A stretch of 22,006 nucleotides of DNA from a virus, in IMG/VR virus record IMGVR_UViG_3300001827_000082, positions 1 to 22,006 of that record; one strand, given 5' to 3'. The translations under genes and the position numbers were made by a program. The notes under the pieces were generated by a model. It saw only the letters and a list, made by a program, of their open reading frames with translations. It made no database searches and was not told where the DNA came from. This document shows positions 8,922-19,353 of this stretch, in pieces (the stretch's first letter is position 1; each line of letters starts with the position of its first letter).

Positions 8922-9556
8922 AGTATTTAGAAGCCGTTCCAGACGTATTAACGCAGATTCCATCGGCTCCTGACTTCGTAATTACAGCCGCTATGAACCG
9001 CTCAGCTCGGAAATTCTGCGAGCAATCAGGCGTGTATAGGCTACGTGTTGAGGATTTGACGGTTCGCGAAGGCATTCAGAACTATGATTTCGCTGATTTT
9101 CTGCCGCGCGAAACAGTCGTCCACAAGATTGATAGTGTGCTTGTAGAGAACAAGCGCCTTGAGCCAGCGACATTCAAGTATGTGTCTCAGCAGCTTCGCG
9201 GCGCTCGGCTAGCTGAGAGAGGCAAAGCGCAGTACTTCGTACCGCACCAGTCATCACAGATCAATATTTGGCCGATACCAGAAGGTACGCTGAAGAAAGC
9301 GCTGGAAGCACAACTTATCCTGAAGCCGTCTCGTAGCGCTGATGAGGTAGAGGACTGGTTTGGCGAGAAGTACTTTGAAGCTTTGATTGCTGGCACAGTA
9401 GCCGAGATGTCCCGCACACCGAATACAGAGTTTTATAACCCAAATCTCTTCCCGCTCATGGAGCAGTACTTCATGTCAGCGATTATGGAAGCGAAGAAAG
9501 AGGCGACAGGCGCCGACCGCGCCGTGCCTAGAAAGGTTAAATACGGCGGGTATTGA
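8918..9556 (+). CDS. Probable head-tail connector/tail protein, 212 aa
   Basis: Overlaps the adaptor gene by four bases (ATGA), so the two are probably made together. Visible features are an N-terminal helical part (PDVLTQIPSAPDFVITAAMNRSARKFCEQ), then beta-rich segments with LRVEDLTVREGIQNYDFADFLPRETVVHKIDSVLVENKRL. A C-terminal pair of helices (WFGEKYFEALIAGTVAEM and LFPLMEQYFMSAIMEAKKEATG) ends in a basic tail. The plan, a helix, a beta domain with a YxF turn before a VxxIxSV strand, and a helix pair, resembles tail adaptor or stopper proteins of short-tailed phages and is partly like the preceding gene product. I cannot assign a precise family. Confidence 0.6.
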   Translation: MKYLEAVPDVLTQIPSAPDFVITAAMNRSARKFCEQSGVYRLRVEDLTVREGIQNYDFADFLPRETVVHKIDSVLVENKRLEPATFKYVSQQLRGARLAERGKAQYFVPHQSSQINIWPIPEGTLKKALEAQLILKPSRSADEVEDWFGEKYFEALIAGTVAEMSRTPNTEFYNPNLFPLMEQYFMSAIMEAKKEATGADRAVPRKVKYGGY

Positions 9557-9987
9557 TGCTCACATTACGCTCAACTTCAGGAGCAGAGCTTAGAAATAAC
9601 TGGCCATGGGTCGAGCACGGTATACAGACGATCATAAGGAAAACAGGATCAGAATTTATAGCGGCGGACATATACGCCGCAATAATGCTGAAAAACCTGT
9701 TTCTTTATTGGATTGTTGAAGACGCATACACCATCGGTTTCACAGTGGTTAGTGAGGCTGATACAGCGTACAACGGAGCCAAATCTCTATATTTAGATCA
9801 TACATACGTAGATACGAAATATATGAGAGACGGTTTACTTGAAGATCTTGATTTAGCCTTTGGAGATCTTGCGGTAAAATGCGATTGTACAAGTCTAGAA
9901 TTTAATTCTCCTAGGATGGGGTGGGGAAGACGCTTAAAGCGTATGGGCTGGAAGCCGTACACTGTGGTTTATAAGCGGGACTTATAA
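9556..9987 (+). CDS. GNAT-like phage protein in the T7 gp13 position, 143 aa
   Basis: The stop of the previous gene and this ATG share a base (TGATG), so I start at 9556 and not at the in-frame TTG one codon earlier. The fold pattern suggests a GNAT acetyltransferase-like domain: helices with FIAADIYAAIMLKNLFLYWIVED, a strand with YTIGFTVVSE, LYLDHTYVDTKYMRDGLLEDLDLAFGDLA, and the ending MGWGRRLKRMGWKPYTVVYKRDL, which matches the GWxRxLxxxGxxPYxxxxxK ending of phage GNAT-like proteins. The usual acetyl-CoA loop (Q/RxxGxG/A) is not visible, so catalysis is doubtful. T7 gp13 (138 aa), in the same gene position, is also GNAT-like and needed for virion morphogenesis. That comparison rests on order, size and fold pattern. 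Confidence 0.6.
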   Translation: MLTLRSTSGAELRNNWPWVEHGIQTIIRKTGSEFIAADIYAAIMLKNLFLYWIVEDAYTIGFTVVSEADTAYNGAKSLYLDHTYVDTKYMRDGLLEDLDLAFGDLAVKCDCTSLEFNSPRMGWGRRLKRMGWKPYTVVYKRDL

Positions 9988-10796
9988 TGGGCAAAGGTAG
10001 TAAGCCAAAAACTCCAGAGGCGAGCGCTAACGAAAAGGCACTTGCCGATATTTCGTTAGACATCTACGCCGACTACAAAGACCGTTATCGGGGCTTAGAA
10101 GATGACCTCATCGCCGATTCTAGTGTGGACAGAACTTCCAGAATCCAAGGCCGTACAAACGTAGACACTCAGAAAGCCTTATCTGCCAATAACGATATTG
10201 CGTTAAGCCGAGCTGGTACATCTGGAGGGCTAGGTTCAGGCGCGTCTGTAGCAAACTATGACGCGGGGGAGACGGGTGGAGCGCTTGCTGTAGCCAACCA
10301 AGGCGGATTTGTAGCGGGCGGGAACGAACTGTTACAACGCAAGACATCAGCTCTTAGCGCAGTTCAGGCTGGCGAAGATGTGTCGCGTGCGGGCATTGCA
10401 CAGGCAGCGAATGTTGCAAACCGCAACACTATTGCTTCTTTCCAAGATGCGCAGAATCGTAAGCTTTCCAATGCGCAAGCGGTTGAGGCGGCTATTGCGG
10501 GCGGGGTTCAAGGGTACATGCAGGGCCAGCAGTACGGCGCTAATCAGCAGATGATCGCAGATACAAAGGCGGCAAGAGATGCGGCAGCTGCAGCGGACAT
10601 CAATAAGATGCAAAACCAATATTTCTCCGGCCCGATGCAACTGGCCGCTCCCGCACAACCATTCTCTTTATACAGCCCACATATGATTGGCGGTCGCATT
10701 CCAGGGGTTCCTTTGGCCCCATACCGAGCGCCTAATCGCGGGATTAGCTTTGTAGATAACACTCAGATACCTATGCGTCTTGGAGTACGTAGATAA
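9987..10796 (+). CDS. Putative internal virion/ejection protein, T7 gp14-like position, 269 aa
   Basis: Starts at an ATG sharing a base with the previous TAA (TAATG). The N-terminus is basic (MGKGSKPKTPEASANEKALA). The middle, about 45-190, is a low-complexity Ala/Gly/Gln/Asn helical region with many small residues (LSRAGTSGGLGSGASVANYD, AGIAQAANVANRNTIASFQDAQNRK) and an AVEAAIAGGVQGYMQGQQYG segment. The end is Pro-rich (PHMIGGRIPGVPLAPYRAP). This is the composition of ejection proteins that enter the host envelope ahead of DNA (compare T7 gp14). The function is inferred from order and composition; there is no diagnostic motif. Confidence 0.6.
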   Translation: MGKGSKPKTPEASANEKALADISLDIYADYKDRYRGLEDDLIADSSVDRTSRIQGRTNVDTQKALSANNDIALSRAGTSGGLGSGASVANYDAGETGGALAVANQGGFVAGGNELLQRKTSALSAVQAGEDVSRAGIAQAANVANRNTIASFQDAQNRKLSNAQAVEAAIAGGVQGYMQGQQYGANQQMIADTKAARDAAAAADINKMQNQYFSGPMQLAAPAQPFSLYSPHMIGGRIPGVPLAPYRAPNRGISFVDNTQIPMRLGVRR

Positions 10797-11302
10797 TGGC
10801 TTATCGTGATGAAGAACTAGCGAACATGACTCGTGAGGATTACGAGTACAGGCGTGGACTACTAAAGCCATTAGAAGACGAACTGTTCGGCATGAAGGAC
10901 GATACTTCAATCATAGATAACGCACGCGAGCAGGTTGGGACCATCCAAGAACGTGGTACTGAGCAGATCGATCGCCAGATGAGCCGCTATGGAACAGCGC
11001 GTACTGGCGCACAAGCAGTAGCAGCAGACAGAAGTCTTGGTTTAGCTACCGCGCAAACAGGGACCGATCTGCTAAATAACGCAGCGATTGATCAAGAAGA
11101 ACGAAACTTAGGCGTGCTAGGAACTCTTGTTGCTGGAGGTCGTAAAAAACAAAAAGGCGCTTTGGCAGGACTTGGTGATGTAGCCGGTATGGAGAGCCAG
11201 CGTATTGCAGCTGGTAATCAAGCGCGTGCACAGTGGCGCGCACAACGTAATCAAACAATCGGAACCTTAGCGACCTTCGCTGGGTTCGCAATGGGGCTTT
11301 AA
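10796..11302 (+). CDS. Putative internal virion protein, 168 aa
   Basis: The ATG overlaps the previous stop by one base (TAATG). The N-terminal 60 residues are strongly charged and helical (ANMTREDYEYRRGLLKPLED...), the middle has small-residue helices (MSRYGTARTGAQAVAADRSL), and the C-terminus ends in a hydrophobic segment TIGTLATFAGFAMGL that could insert in a membrane. Part of the middle resembles the preceding protein in style (SR.GT....GA, then Asn/Ala helices), so the two may be distant duplicates or a split T7 gp14-like function. There are no cysteines. It probably belongs to the ejection complex formed with the two large proteins that follow. Confidence 0.6.
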   Translation: MAYRDEELANMTREDYEYRRGLLKPLEDELFGMKDDTSIIDNAREQVGTIQERGTEQIDRQMSRYGTARTGAQAVAADRSLGLATAQTGTDLLNNAAIDQEERNLGVLGTLVAGGRKKQKGALAGLGDVAGMESQRIAAGNQARAQWRAQRNQTIGTLATFAGFAMGL

Positions 11303-11304
11303 TC

Positions 11305-13500
11305 ATGGCTGGTTATTCTGACATTCTTGGTAGCTTCCTCACTGCGCAGAACCAGCAGCTGAATACCCAGTATCGCTTGGCCTCGCTCGAAGAACAACAG
11401 CGTCAAAACAGAACGCGTAATGAGCAGTTTGATCGGCAGTTCACTGCTGACCAACAGCAGCGGAATTTTGCTAACTCCATCACTAACCAAGAATTAGCGC
11501 TACGACGAAACGAAGACGCTAGGGCTCAGCTACTAACCGATAATCAAGAGCGTTTAAGACTACGTGCAGAAGCATCTCAAGCGCTATACCAGTTACCTGG
11601 AGTTGGAGCTGAAAGTAGTATCGCTGAAGCATATAAAAGCGGCGCCCTAACAGATGAGAGACTCGGCCTGTTTTTACGTACTCACGGTAGTGCGCTCGGC
11701 CTGTTCGACGGCCCTGATGGTAGCCCACGGGTATTTCATAGCATCGCTCCAGCATTAGATGCCAATGGCCAGCCTATCGAAGGGCAATTTGTTATCAACG
11801 TAACAAACCCTAGGACGGGAACGACTGGTGTTGTCACCAGCGAGGGTGGCACTGATCCTAGAGAAGGGGTAGAAACATTTTCTGGGGCAGCTCTAGAGGC
11901 GCTACTCGATCGAGTAGACAGTACAGCCCGCACTATGCGCGGGCAGCTGAGTCGCTTTGACCTAGTGCAGATGTCGAATCGACAAGCAGCGGTCAACGCG
12001 TCGATGCCAAAATCCCAGCTACAGCAGTCGCTAGGCGCATCTGCGATGCCTCAAACAACTGCTACAGCTACTCCGCAAGCGCCGATCCTTTCTGCGACTC
12101 CAGCGACGGCTAATGCGGGAGTCGGCAGTGAAGATTTAATACCATCAGTGGGCGGTAAACCTTCTCGGGATAGCGCCGGTCGTCCAATAGATGATTACAA
12201 CACACAACCAGAACCTGCCACTACGCGGCTTGGGGAGCTGGAATTGTATGTTGATACTCTTGATGAAGAGATCGCTAACGCGCGGAACGCATATAGTAAG
12301 TCAGGCGGGATGTTTTCTGCGCAAGGTCGAAGCATCGAGAAAGATATACAAGCTCTTACGCAACAAAAACAAGCTGCATTAGCTCAAATTAAGCAGCTTC
12401 AGCCAAATAACGCCGTATCCCCAGCAGATCAAGTTCCAGGACCATCGGATACAAGCGGAATACGCAAAGCACTTGCTGATTTACGTCAGACACAAGCGGC
12501 GCCACAAACACAAGGCGAGCGCGTAGCCAGCACCGCGCAACAGTTAGTTGGGTCGATATACGGTGATCTTAACAGACAGCGCAATGAAGGTTTGGGCATG
12601 ATGGACGCTGGCCGTAACTATCGCGGCGCTAACGTATCTGCTGACGATATGGGTCGGATTATTTACGCTGGGCAAAAACGTAAGGCTTACGATCTAACTG
12701 GATCTGCGTACGACGTACAGGGTCTGAATGATACTGCTGTAAACAATATGCTATCTGGTGACGATGCGAGAGGCACTGGATTGGCGCAGGCGAATGCGAG
12801 CATAACCGCTGGGCAGAATATGGTGCAGGACGCTAACACACGTATCGCAACGATGCGTAATACAGACGTTACTGACCGGAGAGAGCGCGAGAAGATGGCA
12901 CTTTCTCAAGGCGAAAAGGCAGATGCGGCGTACAACGCGGCTACACAGGCGCTTCCAGGAGAAATGGAAGCCGCCATGGCGAAGTACGAGATCTTCGGTG
13001 AAAAAGCGCAGACTGCCGCGCAGAAAGGCATGACCGCCGTAATGGGGTCAATCGCAGGTCAGCCTAACGCAGTTAAGAACGCTTACAAATATCTGTTAGT
13101 TCAACCTGATGAGCGTCGCGCTATTGCAGACGGAACAATAGAACTACAACGTGTAATCGATGACGTAGACGACGGAGCACGTTGGATTGAACCAGAAGGA
13201 CGGTTCTATAAGTGGTTGCAAACTCGTAACGGTGTGAAATTCGTACAAGACTTCCTTAACCCAGATATGCCTGATCCTAGATCCATGGACTTAATGTTCT
13301 TAGCTAAGGCTTCTGGGCTAGGCGTCAGAGAGTTTTTGGTAGACGTAGTAAGCCAAGCGACAAACCAACGCACCTCTTCAATAACGCCGAAACAAATGCA
13401 GGCGTTAACAACTAACTTGGTGAAACTGAGACAGGCTGGAATCAAATTCCCACCAAATGAGATGAAAGCCTTCATGATCGAAGAACTGAAGAAGGGCTAA
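11305..13500 (+). CDS. Putative large internal virion protein, T7 gp15-like position, 731 aa
   Basis: ATG at 11305, two bases after the previous stop. The length is close to T7 gp15 (747 aa) and its position, before a giant gp16-sized protein, is the same. Residues 1-100 are a Gln/Arg/Asn-rich helical stretch (QLNTQYRLASLEEQQRQNRT). A small beta-type domain with VFHSIAPALDANGQPIEGQF follows at about 145-190. Residues 235-300 are a Thr/Ala/Pro linker. Residues 307-372 form a coiled coil (LGELELYVDTLDEEIANARN...ALTQQKQAALAQIKQLQP), then come long helices to about 560. The last 150 residues are a globular helical part with WIEPEGRFYKWLQTRNGVKF. No enzymatic motif is visible. It is likely a structural component of the ejection tube. 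Confidence 0.65.
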   Translation: MAGYSDILGSFLTAQNQQLNTQYRLASLEEQQRQNRTRNEQFDRQFTADQQQRNFANSITNQELALRRNEDARAQLLTDNQERLRLRAEASQALYQLPGVGAESSIAEAYKSGALTDERLGLFLRTHGSALGLFDGPDGSPRVFHSIAPALDANGQPIEGQFVINVTNPRTGTTGVVTSEGGTDPREGVETFSGAALEALLDRVDSTARTMRGQLSRFDLVQMSNRQAAVNASMPKSQLQQSLGASAMPQTTATATPQAPILSATPATANAGVGSEDLIPSVGGKPSRDSAGRPIDDYNTQPEPATTRLGELELYVDTLDEEIANARNAYSKSGGMFSAQGRSIEKDIQALTQQKQAALAQIKQLQPNNAVSPADQVPGPSDTSGIRKALADLRQTQAAPQTQGERVASTAQQLVGSIYGDLNRQRNEGLGMMDAGRNYRGANVSADDMGRIIYAGQKRKAYDLTGSAYDVQGLNDTAVNNMLSGDDARGTGLAQANASITAGQNMVQDANTRIATMRNTDVTDRREREKMALSQGEKADAAYNAATQALPGEMEAAMAKYEIFGEKAQTAAQKGMTAVMGSIAGQPNAVKNAYKYLLVQPDERRAIADGTIELQRVIDDVDDGARWIEPEGRFYKWLQTRNGVKFVQDFLNPDMPDPRSMDLMFLAKASGLGVREFLVDVVSQATNQRTSSITPKQMQALTTNLVKLRQAGIKFPPNEMKAFMIEELKKG

Positions 13501-13503
13501 GGT

Positions 13504-16500
13504 ATGGACCCAGTCGCGATCGATCGTATTCGCGCAAATATCGATCTAGCTAACGCCATGTCTAGCGATAACTTGGCGCCCGCTGATCAGCAGTATATCG
13601 ACGTAATCCAGAACTTCACCCGCGCTCAAGGGTTCACCTCTACACCAACACCTAATTTCGCCCAGCGTGCTTTGCTAGCTGGTAAAGAATCTTGGAAAGC
13701 GTCACTAAATTACTTTGACGCTGTAATGCAAGATAAGATCGGCAACCGTGAAGGCTACATATCAGCGATGACCAGCGCTGCCGATAAACAAGTTCTCGCT
13801 AAAGGTATGCGCGATGCTGAAGGCATCAAGTCGTTTGAGACGCTTCTCGATGACGGTAGCGCAGGCGATTGGCTAAAGTATTTTGCATTCACAGGTTTAG
13901 AGACGGCTCCGCACATTGCAGCTACCTTTGCTTCTGCAGGAGCTGGCCTCACTGTTGGGGCAGGCTTAAAAGGGTTACGGGCTCTTGCAGCACGGAAAGC
14001 CAAATCGCTTGCTCAAGACAAGTTCATTCGTAACGCGTCATTATATAGCGCGTTTGCCCATGAGTACGCTGTTGGTACTGGTGAGACCATGGGATTCACT
14101 GGTGATTCTAACGCGTCGCTAATCGCTGGCGCACCTTACGCGGCTGCAAACCTCTACGCAACTGTGGCGTTAAGCGCCGGTATCTTAAAGCAGGCGGTTG
14201 GCACGCCCGCCGAAAAACAAGCCCGCACGTATTTCCAACGCGTACTTGCACAGACCGCACGCGGCGCAGCACTTGAGGGCGTCACTGAAGCATTCCAAGC
14301 AGAGGTCCAGCTTTTAGCAAAAGCAGCGACTGATCCAAACTTTGATATAAATAGCGCTGACGCAAACATGATGCGTTTAGAAGCTGCTGTTGCAGGAACT
14401 GTGTTAGGCGGAACAATTAGTGGAGCAGGCTCATCCATCACTGCACCGTTCGCCGGTCCAACAGGAAACTTCCGCGCTGGTGCCCAACAAGCCGACCAAG
14501 ATTTCCAAGAGGGAATGGATTCGGTCAACCAAGGGCCAGTACAAGGCGAACTTGATCTTGAACCCCGCGAACCAGAGTCAGGATTCATCCCAGAAACTGA
14601 CGAGCAGATCGCTACACAGCTTAAAGAGTTGATCGATGGTCGAGGCCGCGAAGCTGTCCAGCTGACTAATCAAACCATGGACCCAGAGAAACTGGCAGAA
14701 ATCGGTCTCCAGCAGATAGAGCTCGATGCACCAGAGCAAGGCGTCCTAATCGTACGCGCCGACCAAGACGCGGCAGAGATTAAAGCGGCATTTCAGTCGG
14801 GTTCACGAGATGTGCTTGGGAACGGCACGATCAATAAACCAACACAGATGGACATGTTTGACGGGGAGGAAACGCAAGTTGTTCGCTCTGTTAACTCTGA
14901 CGGCAGTAGGGGCGCTGATGTTGTGGTTACCCCTGACACAGAGGCGGCGGTTACAGCGGCTCAAGAAGCTAAGTCAGACGTTGGGAAGACCGAGAAAGTA
15001 ACAGCTAAAGAAGCCGCGAAAAAACGCGTCGCTGATGACATTGACTTCCCAGATGAAATACTTGATGCATTAGAAGTTGACGCACTAGACGGCAACGAAC
15101 GGCCAGATTCTTTTGAGACCCAAGAACAAGAAGCGCAGAACCAAGGGTTGTCAATTGTTGATGAAGAGATTGATACAGCCGCGCAAGAGTTACGCAAAAT
15201 GGCGAGCGGCGCTCGTGGCACAGCAGGAGTTGAGCGCAGCGACGGTAATCGTGGTCCACGGCTATACCAAGTTGCAGCGCTGAAATCATTCTTTGAGTCT
15301 GCTGACTTTAATAACGAAGCGCCGCCAGCAGGCAGAACTTATCAAGCAGGTAAGAAAAAAGTACCGCTACGCCCAGCGATGAAAGAGGTTATCGGTTTCG
15401 TTAGCCCAGAACAGAAAAAGGCGCGGGACGAGAAAGGCAAGTTACTTAAAGACGAAAACGGCAAACAGATACTAGTCGATGGTCAAAACGAGGTTGAGAT
15501 TTTCGATCTCAAAGCTTTGGCTATGGCGGGCTGGCGTCAGCTGCAAAAAGACGGTGCTACAGCAAAAACCACTCGTGAGATGTTGGAGCAAGGGTTAACG
15601 CAAGCGTACGGAACTCTTGCCCTTGCAGGGTATGTACCTGTCGAACAAGGCGCGTATGGAGGGTTCAATTTAGCGTTGACTCCAGATAAGCGTTTTGGGC
15701 GCGGCGATAAGTCTGTACCTGTCAGCCCAGAGTTAGCACGAACAGTAAACGACGGTTTTTCTAGAGAGGCCGCTACGCAAGGCGTAGAGATGCAGGCATA
15801 CGATGAGTTTGGGCGCCCAATAGAAGGCCAAACCTCACAATTGCCCAGTATCGATGCGATGAGCCGCCGTGGTGCTGATAACAACCGCCGCGCTCCTCAA
15901 GTGGACATGGATTCAGCTGTTGAAATAAACCGTCGTATTGTAACCGACGCGGGAGAAAGCCCTCCAAGACGCCGTATTGTTAACATAGATACGCCTGACG
16001 CACGAATAGAAACTTTAAGCGGGCCTCGTGGAGATCAGTTGAGAAATGCGCAAGGAGTAGCGGCGCTTACTCTTCCTACGTACCAGCGTAACGCTGGTAC
16101 GGGCGGGCCTGACGACAGCACAGTAAACATAGTTGAATCGGAGCGTCTAACAAACCCAGACGGTTCAGATCGTTTTATCCCGATAGATGATCAGGCTGAG
16201 ATCGAAAGAGGTGAAAACCAATTTGATGACGGGCCCGAACCAGCACGTAGAAACGACTCTGAAATTATAAGTAATGCGAATAACGAAAGGCGTTTCGAGA
16301 CCTGGAATAGGGTAGCGGCAATTGCATCACCAACTGCAAACGTAAAGATTGCAACAGGGTCTAAACTGGGTGACCCAACAATAGCGATGATTAAGAACCT
16401 TGCGAATGCAATTAAGCTGACAGACACGAAGGTGTTGATTATCGATTCAGATTCCGCCGATGCATTCTTGAGAAAAGAGAATAAGGTGGAAGGTGAGCCA

Positions 16501-19353
16501 ACACGGCAGCGGATTGACGAAAACTTCCGAAGCGTTGTTTATGACGCCGTCCGTGGTAACCCAATGGGCCGATCTATCGTTGATCCAACGTTGGGATACG
16601 GCGTGGTGTTTATTAACACGCGCAAGATAAATAGCTTAAAAAATAAAGTCGGACGTAAGTTTGTTCCTAAGTCTAAAGCTGAGAAAGCGGCCCTTACAGC
16701 GTGGACAATCTCACACGAGTTAGGTCACCAGTATTTTAGAAGCACCATTGCCGCGTTACCAAAAGCAGATAAGGCAGCACTATACACCCTCTTCAACCAA
16801 GACGAATCCCGTCAGTGGTATCTCGATCAGTACGCAATAAGAGATGAAGACGGCAATGTAGTGAGCCAAGACCCAGCGCAAGCCGCTAACGAATGGTTCG
16901 CTGATCGAATTGCTGCGGTCAACATGAAGATCATTGGTAGACGACGGGTTGCCGTGTTGCCGTTTGATGATAGTACTGTTGCTGGTAAAGCGATGAATAA
17001 GGTTGCGGCAAGTATCGCAGCAGTGTTCGACGCCATTTTTAAGGTTTGGCAAACCAAGTTTGCTACTGACAAACGACGCCCAATGCATTCTAACCCAGCA
17101 TTTAACTCGTGGTTAACCAACGCAGTGCGGCGTAAAGATCAGGCGATACGAGAAGCGGTTTCTATTAAAGAGACAGAGCGCGAGCAGTTGCGAACCCAAG
17201 AGTACAATAGAGATCCATCAACGGACCTTTTCCCGCTTGATGATGAGTCTGTCGCCGCCCAAGAACAACTAGACGCATTACGCAGCAAACCTCTTGAATT
17301 AGATAAAGAGATATACAGAGCAAAGACAGGACGCGCTACAGAACGTAAGGTAGACGACTTCGACCTCGATCAGTTTATTGATGATTACAACATCCCGCGC
17401 AACCGTATCCAGTTTGAGCAGACAGCACAGACGGCGTATGAAAAAGGCGTTGGGTCGATGCTCGGTAAGTTGTTCTTCTCTGCGCATGAGCAGCTGTCTG
17501 TGATGGGCCCAGCGGGCAAAAGACTCGCTGATATGCTTTATAAGAAGTCATCGACCGTAGGTCGAGGCGGTTTCATCAATAAAGCAGACCGCGCATACCA
17601 AAGCGCAATCGGCACTTTGTACGAACGACTTCCAAAAGATAAAGAAACGATGACTCAGGTACTCGATGAGTACGCTGTGTGGCGAGAGAACGGAGCGGAT
17701 ATGAATAATATTCCACCGGCAATACGTCGTTATCATCGTACGTTGTCTCAATTCTTTGACCGAATGGCTCAGTATGCCGCTCGCGCAAACCCTGATTTCC
17801 GTGATCGCATACGCGAGAACTACTTCCCGCACATGTATGATCCAGAAAAGCTGAACGACCCGCAGAAGCAAGAGGCGTTAGCGCAACTGGTATTAGCCAA
17901 ACATCCAGACTTGTATCAAGACTCAGGGATCGAAGGTGCACGCCAGTCGGTACGCGGGTTAAGAGCAGGACTGTCAGCGCGTACGCAGTCGCCAGATCCT
18001 AAAGGCGTAACTGCGCACTCAGCGGAACAACGGACGTGGACAAACTTAACGTACGGAGAGTTGAAAGAGCTCAACGTACTCTACGACGTACGCGGTGCTG
18101 TGTTTAAGTACGCTCGTGAGATGACGCGTATGGCTGAGTTCAACCGTATGTTCGGCGAACAGCGTACCCAGATGGATCGTAACGGGAACCTCTACGAGAC
18201 TTGGCAACCAGACCAAAAGATTCGTACTGCTATCGAGCAGCTGCCAGAAGAGAAACAAGCGCAAGCCCGCGTGATTGTTGATGGAATGCTAGGCCGTCTC
18301 GGCAAGAAAGCAAACCCGCAATGGACCGAGGCGCAGTCATGGATGATGAGCCTACAGTTCATGGCAACACTGTCGTTTGCCACTCTTGCGTCACTGCCCG
18401 ATATTATGATGCCAGCGCTTCGCAGCCGAGAGTTTTCTGGGCTTGCTGAAAACATCAACCAGATAACCAAGATGCTCAGCAAAGAAGGGCGCCAAGAGAT
18501 GTACGAACTCGCGTACACCACAGGTGCTGTCTCTACTGATCTGGTTCATGAGTCAATTATCTCTGGGTATGGCTCAGAGTGGATGTCATCTAAGCCTCGA
18601 AAGGTAACAGATACATTCTTCAAAGTGATCGGGCTCGAACAGTGGACACGCATGACACGAGTGATCGCTACGAGTTTTGCAAAAGACTTCCTTATCAAGC
18701 ACGCAACACAACCGAATGCACGGTCTGAGCGTTATTTAGCAGAGTTGGAAATTGACGCACCGACGATCCAAGCATGGCTTAACAGCGATCAGAACTTTGA
18801 CTCACCAGAGGGGCGCCGCGTCAAGATAGCGATGCTGAACTTTACTGATGAGGCAGTCCTAAGACCAAATGCAGCAGAGCGCCCGACGTACATGTCAGAC
18901 CCTCGGTTCATGATCTTTGGTCAGTTGAAAGGTTTCTTCTACAGCTTCGGTCAAAAAGTGGTTGGTGGTTTGTATCGTGAGATGCAGTCACGGCAAGCTG
19001 CTGGGGAAAGCATCTCGTCATCGATGACGCCTATGCTTCTGGCAAGCGTTGCTTTGATGCCGCTTGCTGCCGTAGCTCTCAGTATCCGTGAGGGTATTAA
19101 GTACGAAGAAGGCGAAGCACCTACTGATGAAATGAACATACCTGAGTACATGTTCGAAGTCATGACTCGCGCAGGGTTCTTGGGACCACTAGAAATTCCA
19201 CGGGCGATGTTCCAAGCAGAGCAATACGGACAACCGTTTTGGGCAGCGCCACTTGGACCAACGGTGGGGACAGGTCTAGACCTAGTCAACTCGAAGGGCT
19301 TTAGCGGCCTAGAGGGGCTTCTCCCAGCGTACAACACGGGGATTTATAATTGA
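13504..19353 (+). CDS. Giant ejection protein with HExxH metallopeptidase domain, 1949 aa
   Basis: Sits where T7 places gp16 (1318 aa), last of the internal virion genes before the fibre genes, but is much longer. Residues 126-156, 202-232 and 292-318 are hydrophobic, with a GAALEGVTEAFQAEV segment (about 254-268) common in large phage and polyvalent proteins. Residues 320-960 are mostly Asp/Glu/Gln-rich linkers with a small ordered part near 600-750. SHELGHQYF carries HExxH (H1071, E1072, H1075), and NEWFADR (E1130) supplies a likely third zinc ligand, as in gluzincins of the ImmA/IrrE type. Residues 1400-1949 form a helical C-terminal domain reminiscent of large polyvalent-protein-associated domains, with a membrane-like segment at about 1840-1862. 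No lytic transglycosylase motif was seen. Confidence 0.75.
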   Translation: MDPVAIDRIRANIDLANAMSSDNLAPADQQYIDVIQNFTRAQGFTSTPTPNFAQRALLAGKESWKASLNYFDAVMQDKIGNREGYISAMTSAADKQVLAKGMRDAEGIKSFETLLDDGSAGDWLKYFAFTGLETAPHIAATFASAGAGLTVGAGLKGLRALAARKAKSLAQDKFIRNASLYSAFAHEYAVGTGETMGFTGDSNASLIAGAPYAAANLYATVALSAGILKQAVGTPAEKQARTYFQRVLAQTARGAALEGVTEAFQAEVQLLAKAATDPNFDINSADANMMRLEAAVAGTVLGGTISGAGSSITAPFAGPTGNFRAGAQQADQDFQEGMDSVNQGPVQGELDLEPREPESGFIPETDEQIATQLKELIDGRGREAVQLTNQTMDPEKLAEIGLQQIELDAPEQGVLIVRADQDAAEIKAAFQSGSRDVLGNGTINKPTQMDMFDGEETQVVRSVNSDGSRGADVVVTPDTEAAVTAAQEAKSDVGKTEKVTAKEAAKKRVADDIDFPDEILDALEVDALDGNERPDSFETQEQEAQNQGLSIVDEEIDTAAQELRKMASGARGTAGVERSDGNRGPRLYQVAALKSFFESADFNNEAPPAGRTYQAGKKKVPLRPAMKEVIGFVSPEQKKARDEKGKLLKDENGKQILVDGQNEVEIFDLKALAMAGWRQLQKDGATAKTTREMLEQGLTQAYGTLALAGYVPVEQGAYGGFNLALTPDKRFGRGDKSVPVSPELARTVNDGFSREAATQGVEMQAYDEFGRPIEGQTSQLPSIDAMSRRGADNNRRAPQVDMDSAVEINRRIVTDAGESPPRRRIVNIDTPDARIETLSGPRGDQLRNAQGVAALTLPTYQRNAGTGGPDDSTVNIVESERLTNPDGSDRFIPIDDQAEIERGENQFDDGPEPARRNDSEIISNANNERRFETWNRVAAIASPTANVKIATGSKLGDPTIAMIKNLANAIKLTDTKVLIIDSDSADAFLRKENKVEGEPTRQRIDENFRSVVYDAVRGNPMGRSIVDPTLGYGVVFINTRKINSLKNKVGRKFVPKSKAEKAALTAWTISHELGHQYFRSTIAALPKADKAALYTLFNQDESRQWYLDQYAIRDEDGNVVSQDPAQAANEWFADRIAAVNMKIIGRRRVAVLPFDDSTVAGKAMNKVAASIAAVFDAIFKVWQTKFATDKRRPMHSNPAFNSWLTNAVRRKDQAIREAVSIKETEREQLRTQEYNRDPSTDLFPLDDESVAAQEQLDALRSKPLELDKEIYRAKTGRATERKVDDFDLDQFIDDYNIPRNRIQFEQTAQTAYEKGVGSMLGKLFFSAHEQLSVMGPAGKRLADMLYKKSSTVGRGGFINKADRAYQSAIGTLYERLPKDKETMTQVLDEYAVWRENGADMNNIPPAIRRYHRTLSQFFDRMAQYAARANPDFRDRIRENYFPHMYDPEKLNDPQKQEALAQLVLAKHPDLYQDSGIEGARQSVRGLRAGLSARTQSPDPKGVTAHSAEQRTWTNLTYGELKELNVLYDVRGAVFKYAREMTRMAEFNRMFGEQRTQMDRNGNLYETWQPDQKIRTAIEQLPEEKQAQARVIVDGMLGRLGKKANPQWTEAQSWMMSLQFMATLSFATLASLPDIMMPALRSREFSGLAENINQITKMLSKEGRQEMYELAYTTGAVSTDLVHESIISGYGSEWMSSKPRKVTDTFFKVIGLEQWTRMTRVIATSFAKDFLIKHATQPNARSERYLAELEIDAPTIQAWLNSDQNFDSPEGRRVKIAMLNFTDEAVLRPNAAERPTYMSDPRFMIFGQLKGFFYSFGQKVVGGLYREMQSRQAAGESISSSMTPMLLASVALMPLAAVALSIREGIKYEEGEAPTDEMNIPEYMFEVMTRAGFLGPLEIPRAMFQAEQYGQPFWAAPLGPTVGTGLDLVNSKGFSGLEGLLPAYNTGIYN
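16079..16101. repeat. Perfect 23-nt palindrome inside the giant gene
   Basis: CGTACCAGCG (16079-16088), centre TAA, CGCTGGTACG (16092-16101). The flanking T and A of the centre also pair, so eleven bases on each side mirror around one base. It lies in the low-complexity linker before the metallopeptidase domain (codons about 860-866). There is no T-tract after it, so it is not a usual terminator. A protein-binding or recombination site, or an RNA hairpin slowing ribosomes at a domain boundary, are possible. Confidence 0.6.

Follow-up and report, generated by a model that had tools for sequence, protein, structure and literature searches.

The window, meaning the whole stretch of 22,006 nucleotides of viral DNA that was analysed, belongs to a podovirus whose portal is of the P22 type (Pfam P22_portal, E 6e-118). 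The genes run from terminase, portal, and capsid through two structural proteins to products of 144, 269, 168, 731, and 1949 residues, followed by fibre-type genes. The 168-731-1949 order parallels that of gp52-gp51-gp50 in phage N4. The ejection-type genes and the parts of the largest product are as follows.

10796..11302, plus strand: 168-residue protein, probable small ejection protein (gene order only; weak PHROG match of unknown function)
11305..13500, plus strand: 731-residue protein, probable second ejection protein (gene order as in N4 gp52-gp51-gp50; no family match)
13504..19353, plus strand: open reading frame for the giant ejection/virion protein of 1949 residues, downstream of genes for the portal, the capsid, structural proteins, and two smaller products of ejection type (match to PHROG 30152, "virion structural protein," E 2e-25)
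13504..14463, plus strand: N-terminal scaffold, residues 1-320, resembling the N-terminus of compact LUZ24-type proteins
14464..16350, plus strand: variable middle region, residues 321-949, no recognised domain
16351..17073, plus strand: predicted zinc metallopeptidase core, residues 950-1190 (AlphaFold2 model, 41-sequence alignment)
16714..16728, plus strand: HELGH, residues 1071-1075, the two predicted zinc-ligand histidines and catalytic glutamate (H, E, and H invariant in 41 sequences)
16891..16893, plus strand: E1130 of NEWFAD, predicted third zinc ligand (invariant in 41 sequences), on the helix after the HExxH helix
17074..17361, plus strand: charged linker, residues 1191-1286, 30% identical to its counterpart in relative L004
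17362..19350, plus strand: conserved C-terminal scaffold, residues 1287-1949, 63% identical to L004

The first-pass annotation had called the 1949-residue product a giant ejection protein, and the surroundings support this. Its gene closes an ejection-type block (168, 731, and 1949 residues) that follows the portal, capsid, and structural genes, and its scaffold is common to LUZ24-type particle proteins. Going by gene order and by this similarity to particle proteins, it is probably a giant virion protein that is ejected with the DNA. Pfam and PHROG searches of the giant protein and the three preceding gene products found no transglycosylase domain. Further upstream (window 9553-9987), the 144-residue product starts with TTG and by eye looks like a GNAT acetyltransferase, with nothing in Pfam or PHROGs. 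A longer identical contig, L001, carries a collagen/S74 fibre gene and an M15 wall peptidase gene downstream. The fibre (L001:18141-20093) has collagen-like repeats and, at its C-terminus, an S74 self-cleaving chaperone domain, and the M15-type wall peptidase (L001:23101-23550, Pfam E 1e-14) is likely the endolysin.

Two scaffold ends frame the giant protein. The N-terminal scaffold is shared, more weakly than the C-terminal one, with compact relatives (window protein against tf gp51, E 4e-4; phiA008 against BroderSalsa, E 8e-9), and the last ~390 residues of the C-terminal scaffold are common to KPP25, phiA008, LUZ24-type proteins, and more than 200 metagenomic phage proteins. The middle region, residues 321-949, has no match in Pfam or NCBIfam and is mostly missing in the compact LUZ24-type relatives. 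The peptidase slot is fixed between the variable middle region and the conserved C-terminal scaffold. The stretch 16675-17080, which holds the motifs, is open and in frame within the 1949-residue reading frame (13504-19353), and the positions given for them at first pass are exact: HExxH, which occurs once in the protein, lies at residues 1071-1075, and the glutamate at 1130 falls within NEWFADR (residues 1129-1135).

Relatives were sought in viral contigs by the C-terminal region alone, so the motif played no part in their choice. A first scan returned 24 new loci, every one of them with an HExxH upstream. A second scan, for which the profile of the C-terminal region was broader, found 249 relatives, of which the best 80 were taken; these gave 40 non-redundant sequences, 36 with enough upstream sequence. 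In all 36 of these non-redundant full-length relatives from the best 80 of 249, an HExxH lies 391-472 residues upstream of the C-terminal match, and this sample leans to close relatives because the profile was built mostly from peptidase-bearing proteins, the loci taken were the most query-like, and a few contigs recur in both scans. The HExxH residues and the downstream glutamate align in 37/37 sequences (the 36 relatives and the window protein), so the conservation on which the proposed site had been made to depend is present. Across 41 aligned domains with a mean identity of 18%, H1071, E1072, H1075, and E1130 are the sole invariant columns. Searches that started from the domain itself were uninformative: an exact-match DNA pattern for SHELGHQYF hit no locus, and tblastn of the domain alone against cultured phages gave chance-level matches only.

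One relative, L004, is a full-length, collinear protein of 1868 residues that is 47% identical to the window protein overall. It keeps the motifs as SHELGHQYF and NEFFADQ, and its counterpart of the linker is proline-rich. Identity in the peptidase core is only 35%, compared with 63% in the C-terminal scaffold and 25% in middle-region residues 741-935. The peptidase domain is under purifying selection, with dN/dS of ~0.1 in unsaturated close pairs (L044/L049, 0.15/1.53; L058/L059, 0.21/2.24); the ratio is ~0.5 (0.51/1.07) in L033/L035, two sequences that lie further apart and have the other zincin type described below. L058, L059, and L060 also carry the scaffold; they are binned under Endozoicomonas and a Campbellbacteria genome and are probably phage contigs.

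The predicted fold agrees with a zinc peptidase. An AlphaFold2 model from a 26-sequence alignment has a mean pLDDT of 78 and a pTM of 0.76, with pLDDT mostly 88-97 over the active region (construct residues 111-190). Its elements follow the zincin topology: a helix (8-20), strands (28-32, 73-77, and 84-88), and two further helices (109-133 and 175-194), with extra helices at 33-43 and 57-69. The HExxH is on helix 109-133 and E1130 is on the later helix 175-194; modelling of a longer construct from fewer sequences gave the same picture. As far as the placing of the helices goes, the model agrees with the check set at first pass, which was whether a predicted structure would keep these residues together. 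The domain has the features of a gluzincin of clan MA(E), namely an HExxH with both histidines and the glutamate and, on a downstream helix, a glutamate as the predicted third ligand. Together with the conservation among relatives, this backs the original claim that the giant virion/ejection protein holds an intact zinc site of gluzincin type. By analogy with the zincin family, from which zinc binding and proteolysis are carried over, the domain is probably an active gluzincin-type peptidase.

Placing the domain in a named family is harder. No curated family covers it, there is no Pfam match (Peptidase_M78, PF06114, included), and single-sequence Pfam and PDB searches with the domain gave nothing usable. 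When the relatives were searched singly, zincin families came up: Peptidase_M78 was matched by 12/41 (best 1.1e-7), M48 by 5/41, and DUF4344 and DUF6782 by 2 each. The suggested comparison with ImmA/IrrE therefore stands at the level of fold and motif, with M78 matches in the relatives; it fails for the window protein itself, which is unmatched. Foldseek against the PDB gave no match below E 0.001. The leading matches were to a gluzincin, anthrax lethal factor (probability 0.96, E 0.007; in a second run 0.90, E 0.039), and a few in the second set appear to be to its isolated N-terminal domain, which has the same fold but lacks the active site. Among predicted viral structures, the best match (E 2e-4, probability 1.0) was a large phage protein that bears the name "large polyvalent protein associated domain-containing", with several of the same name lower down.

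The compact relatives (1021-1043 residues; Slicky01, 1222 residues) have neither the long middle region nor the HExxH. No gene resembling the missing peptidase, and no neighbouring HExxH gene, was found in the fetched neighbourhood of these proteins. A giant can therefore be described as a compact protein plus a long middle region and a peptidase, and the peptidase accompanies the long middle region in all giants examined. The compact set is five proteins, four of them LUZ24-like, and it stayed small because scanning with the scaffold of the compact LUZ24-type proteins yielded no new relatives.

Among cultured phages, KPP25 and phiA008 have giants that share the C-terminal scaffold. In the KPP25-type giants, the same slot holds a second zincin type, with HESxH or HEAxH followed by EExxAYMxQFW. 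It is found in most of L006, L027-L030, and L032-L039; L031 is of the EWFAD type. In a profile comparison between the KPP25 and EEWFAD types the motifs align at E 4e-4 with a low probability of 36%, and the two could be either distant relatives or convergent fill-ins of one slot. Other arrangements were seen as well. In Roseobacter phage CRP-810 (L011:1-8224), the giant gene is split into two overlapping genes. Of these, gp35 carries two HExxH motifs and gp34 the C-terminal scaffold, and alignment puts the break after the relatives' peptidase position, near the linker at 1191-1286 of the window protein. A 3736-residue relative with an open 5' end (L020:2-11209) has three HExxH motifs (1437, 1990, and 2845), the first above the Peptidase_M48 cut-off, and a 2651-residue relative (L028:3215-11167) has two, with a sub-threshold LPD23 match (E 1.5e-5).

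What the peptidase is for has several possible answers, and the weights given to them here are our judgement. The motif is short and might have been a match without function, but composition predicts 0.005 copies in the protein, and all 36 relatives fetched by their C-terminal region keep an HExxH, compared with 0.5% of shuffled sequences in a 400-residue slot. The motif is therefore not a product of chance; conservation refutes that reading, and its probability is negligible. Cutting of the peptide cross-links of the cell wall, in place of the T7 transglycosylase, is suggested by the textbook wall-cutting domain of T7 gp16 at the corresponding gene position. However, the window domain matches no wall-binding or wall-peptidase family, its nearest folds are protein-cutting gluzincins, and the M15 wall peptidase is encoded separately downstream on L001, so a wall-cutting enzyme was rejected as very unlikely. 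Somewhat more room is left for a mainly structural zincin fold that would hold zinc and be needed for the giant protein to fold or be packaged, while cutting little or nothing, as perhaps in the C1 domain of the N4 virion RNA polymerase. The N4 region with the comparable HExxH domain is needed for encapsidation, and that protein is packaged unprocessed (PMC5512222); N4 C1 also has a later NEF motif and aligns weakly with the window domain (E 6e-4; E 2e-4). Yet the general-base glutamate is invariant in 41 sequences at such low mean identity, although a zinc site of purely structural function could do without it, which makes this role improbable.

The explanation we favour, with about an even chance of being right, is that the peptidase cuts its own polypeptide or co-ejected partners rather than a host target. 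H1071, H1075, and E1130 would bind zinc and E1072 would activate water, as in other zincins; this catalytic glutamate is kept in 41/41 sequences, not the zinc ligands alone. The giant protein would go into the cell with the DNA, and during or after ejection the peptidase would cut phage polypeptides, either its own chain close by or those of its partners. Candidate sites in its own chain are the poorly conserved linkers at ~740-940 or 1191-1286, where a cut would free the middle cargo from the scaffold. Such processing is favoured because every giant examined has the peptidase and its presence goes with the extra middle region, and processing is supported by the place of the peptidase at the boundary between middle region and scaffold, near which the CRP-810 gene is split. 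It is weakened by the case of N4, in which a comparable domain stands before the C-terminal domain of a protein packaged unprocessed; P1 DdrB is processed before packaging (PMC5512222). The analysis turned up no cut site or cleavage product, and a search of the literature on KPP25 found no virion cleavage data. Processing is also weakened because the core diverges faster than the scaffold, which may also reflect adaptation to targets in the host. An injected effector that cuts a host envelope or cytoplasmic protein soon after entry is thus the main competitor, though a clearly less probable one. Polyvalent proteins as a class have been proposed to be injected, and both self-processing and host proteins have been put forward as the work of their peptidases (PMC5512222); the filling of one slot by two zincin groups (HExGH..EEWFAD and HESxH..EExxAY) in different phages would suit a host effector too. 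An effector of this kind would be expected to be patchy, yet the peptidase is present in 36/36 of the giants examined and its place in the chain is fixed.

Taken further, processing of phage polypeptides leads to a tentative picture, which we consider rather doubtful, of a widespread short-tailed phage group whose largest ejection protein has two conserved scaffold ends, variable cargo, and an obligatory release peptidase at the junction of cargo and scaffold. Two diverged zincin types would fill the slot, and phages free of the cargo would also be free of the peptidase. Predictions of peptidases in phage ejection proteins go back years, and their substrates are still unsettled. In the present family, which is large and easily recognised by its scaffold, the peptidase is strictly conserved. 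Cultured members exist both with it (Aeromonas phage phiA008, and Pseudomonas phage KPP25 with the other zincin type) and without it (the LUZ24-type phages), and the choice between self-processing and a host target is therefore directly testable.

Peptidase domains in giant phage proteins of this kind are already known, and the window protein adds one more member. Of the systems compared, T7 gp16 is a giant ejection protein with a wall-cutting lytic transglycosylase. The window protein resembles it in size class and gene position; unlike gp16, it has no lytic transglycosylase detectable with Pfam or PHROG. A polyvalent protein in the strict sense combines two or more unrelated activities in one chain and is delivered into the host with the DNA. 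The peptidase is the only activity recognised in the 1949-residue protein, and no second enzyme activity was found with Pfam, PHROG, or NCBIfam. Peptidase M78 (ImmA/IrrE) shares the gluzincin motif and is the Pfam family that matched the largest number of relatives, but the window protein is itself unmatched and no regulator domain or partner was seen. Anthrax lethal factor, the best match among solved structures, is alike at the level of fold only (10-13% identity, TM-score 0.29-0.40), which implies no kinship in function or delivery. The LUZ24-type virion proteins (tf gp51 and the LUZ24 particle protein) are annotated phage particle proteins with the same N- and C-terminal scaffold; they differ in being ~1040 residues long, without the long middle region or the peptidase.

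According to Iyer et al. (2017, PMC5512222), no domain is commoner in polyvalent proteins than the zincin-like peptidase, and the C-terminal part of the N4 virion RNA polymerase is one of the examples. Of the kinds already known, this one is nearest to the window domain. The window domain is like these peptidases in being part of a very large phage protein whose gene lies among virion genes and, in the model, in having an HExxH helix, a glutamate on a later helix, and a small zincin core of sheet plus helices (PMC5512222). It differs in that it matches none of the curated Pfam polyvalent-peptidase models, and none of these is among the families listed for the relatives. The N4 virion RNA polymerase (gp50) is similar in layout. 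A whole-length relationship was rejected, since the window protein has no polymerase match and profile comparison finds no detectable similarity between the N4 C-terminal domain and the window scaffold (E 0.4). Similarity to N4 C1 is weak (E 6e-4 with N4 alone; 0.01 and 2e-4 with the N4 family), and a profile comparison of C1 with the KPP25-type zincin gave nothing. The N4-family C1 domains do keep the H, E, and H and the glutamate of NEFMAW. In the 2025 structure of the N4 polymerase, the C1 domain with the HExxH is followed by a large helical C2 (PMC12633501), just as the window's HExxH domain stands directly before its large C-terminal part, and both proteins are the last and largest of three ejection-type proteins encoded in the same order.
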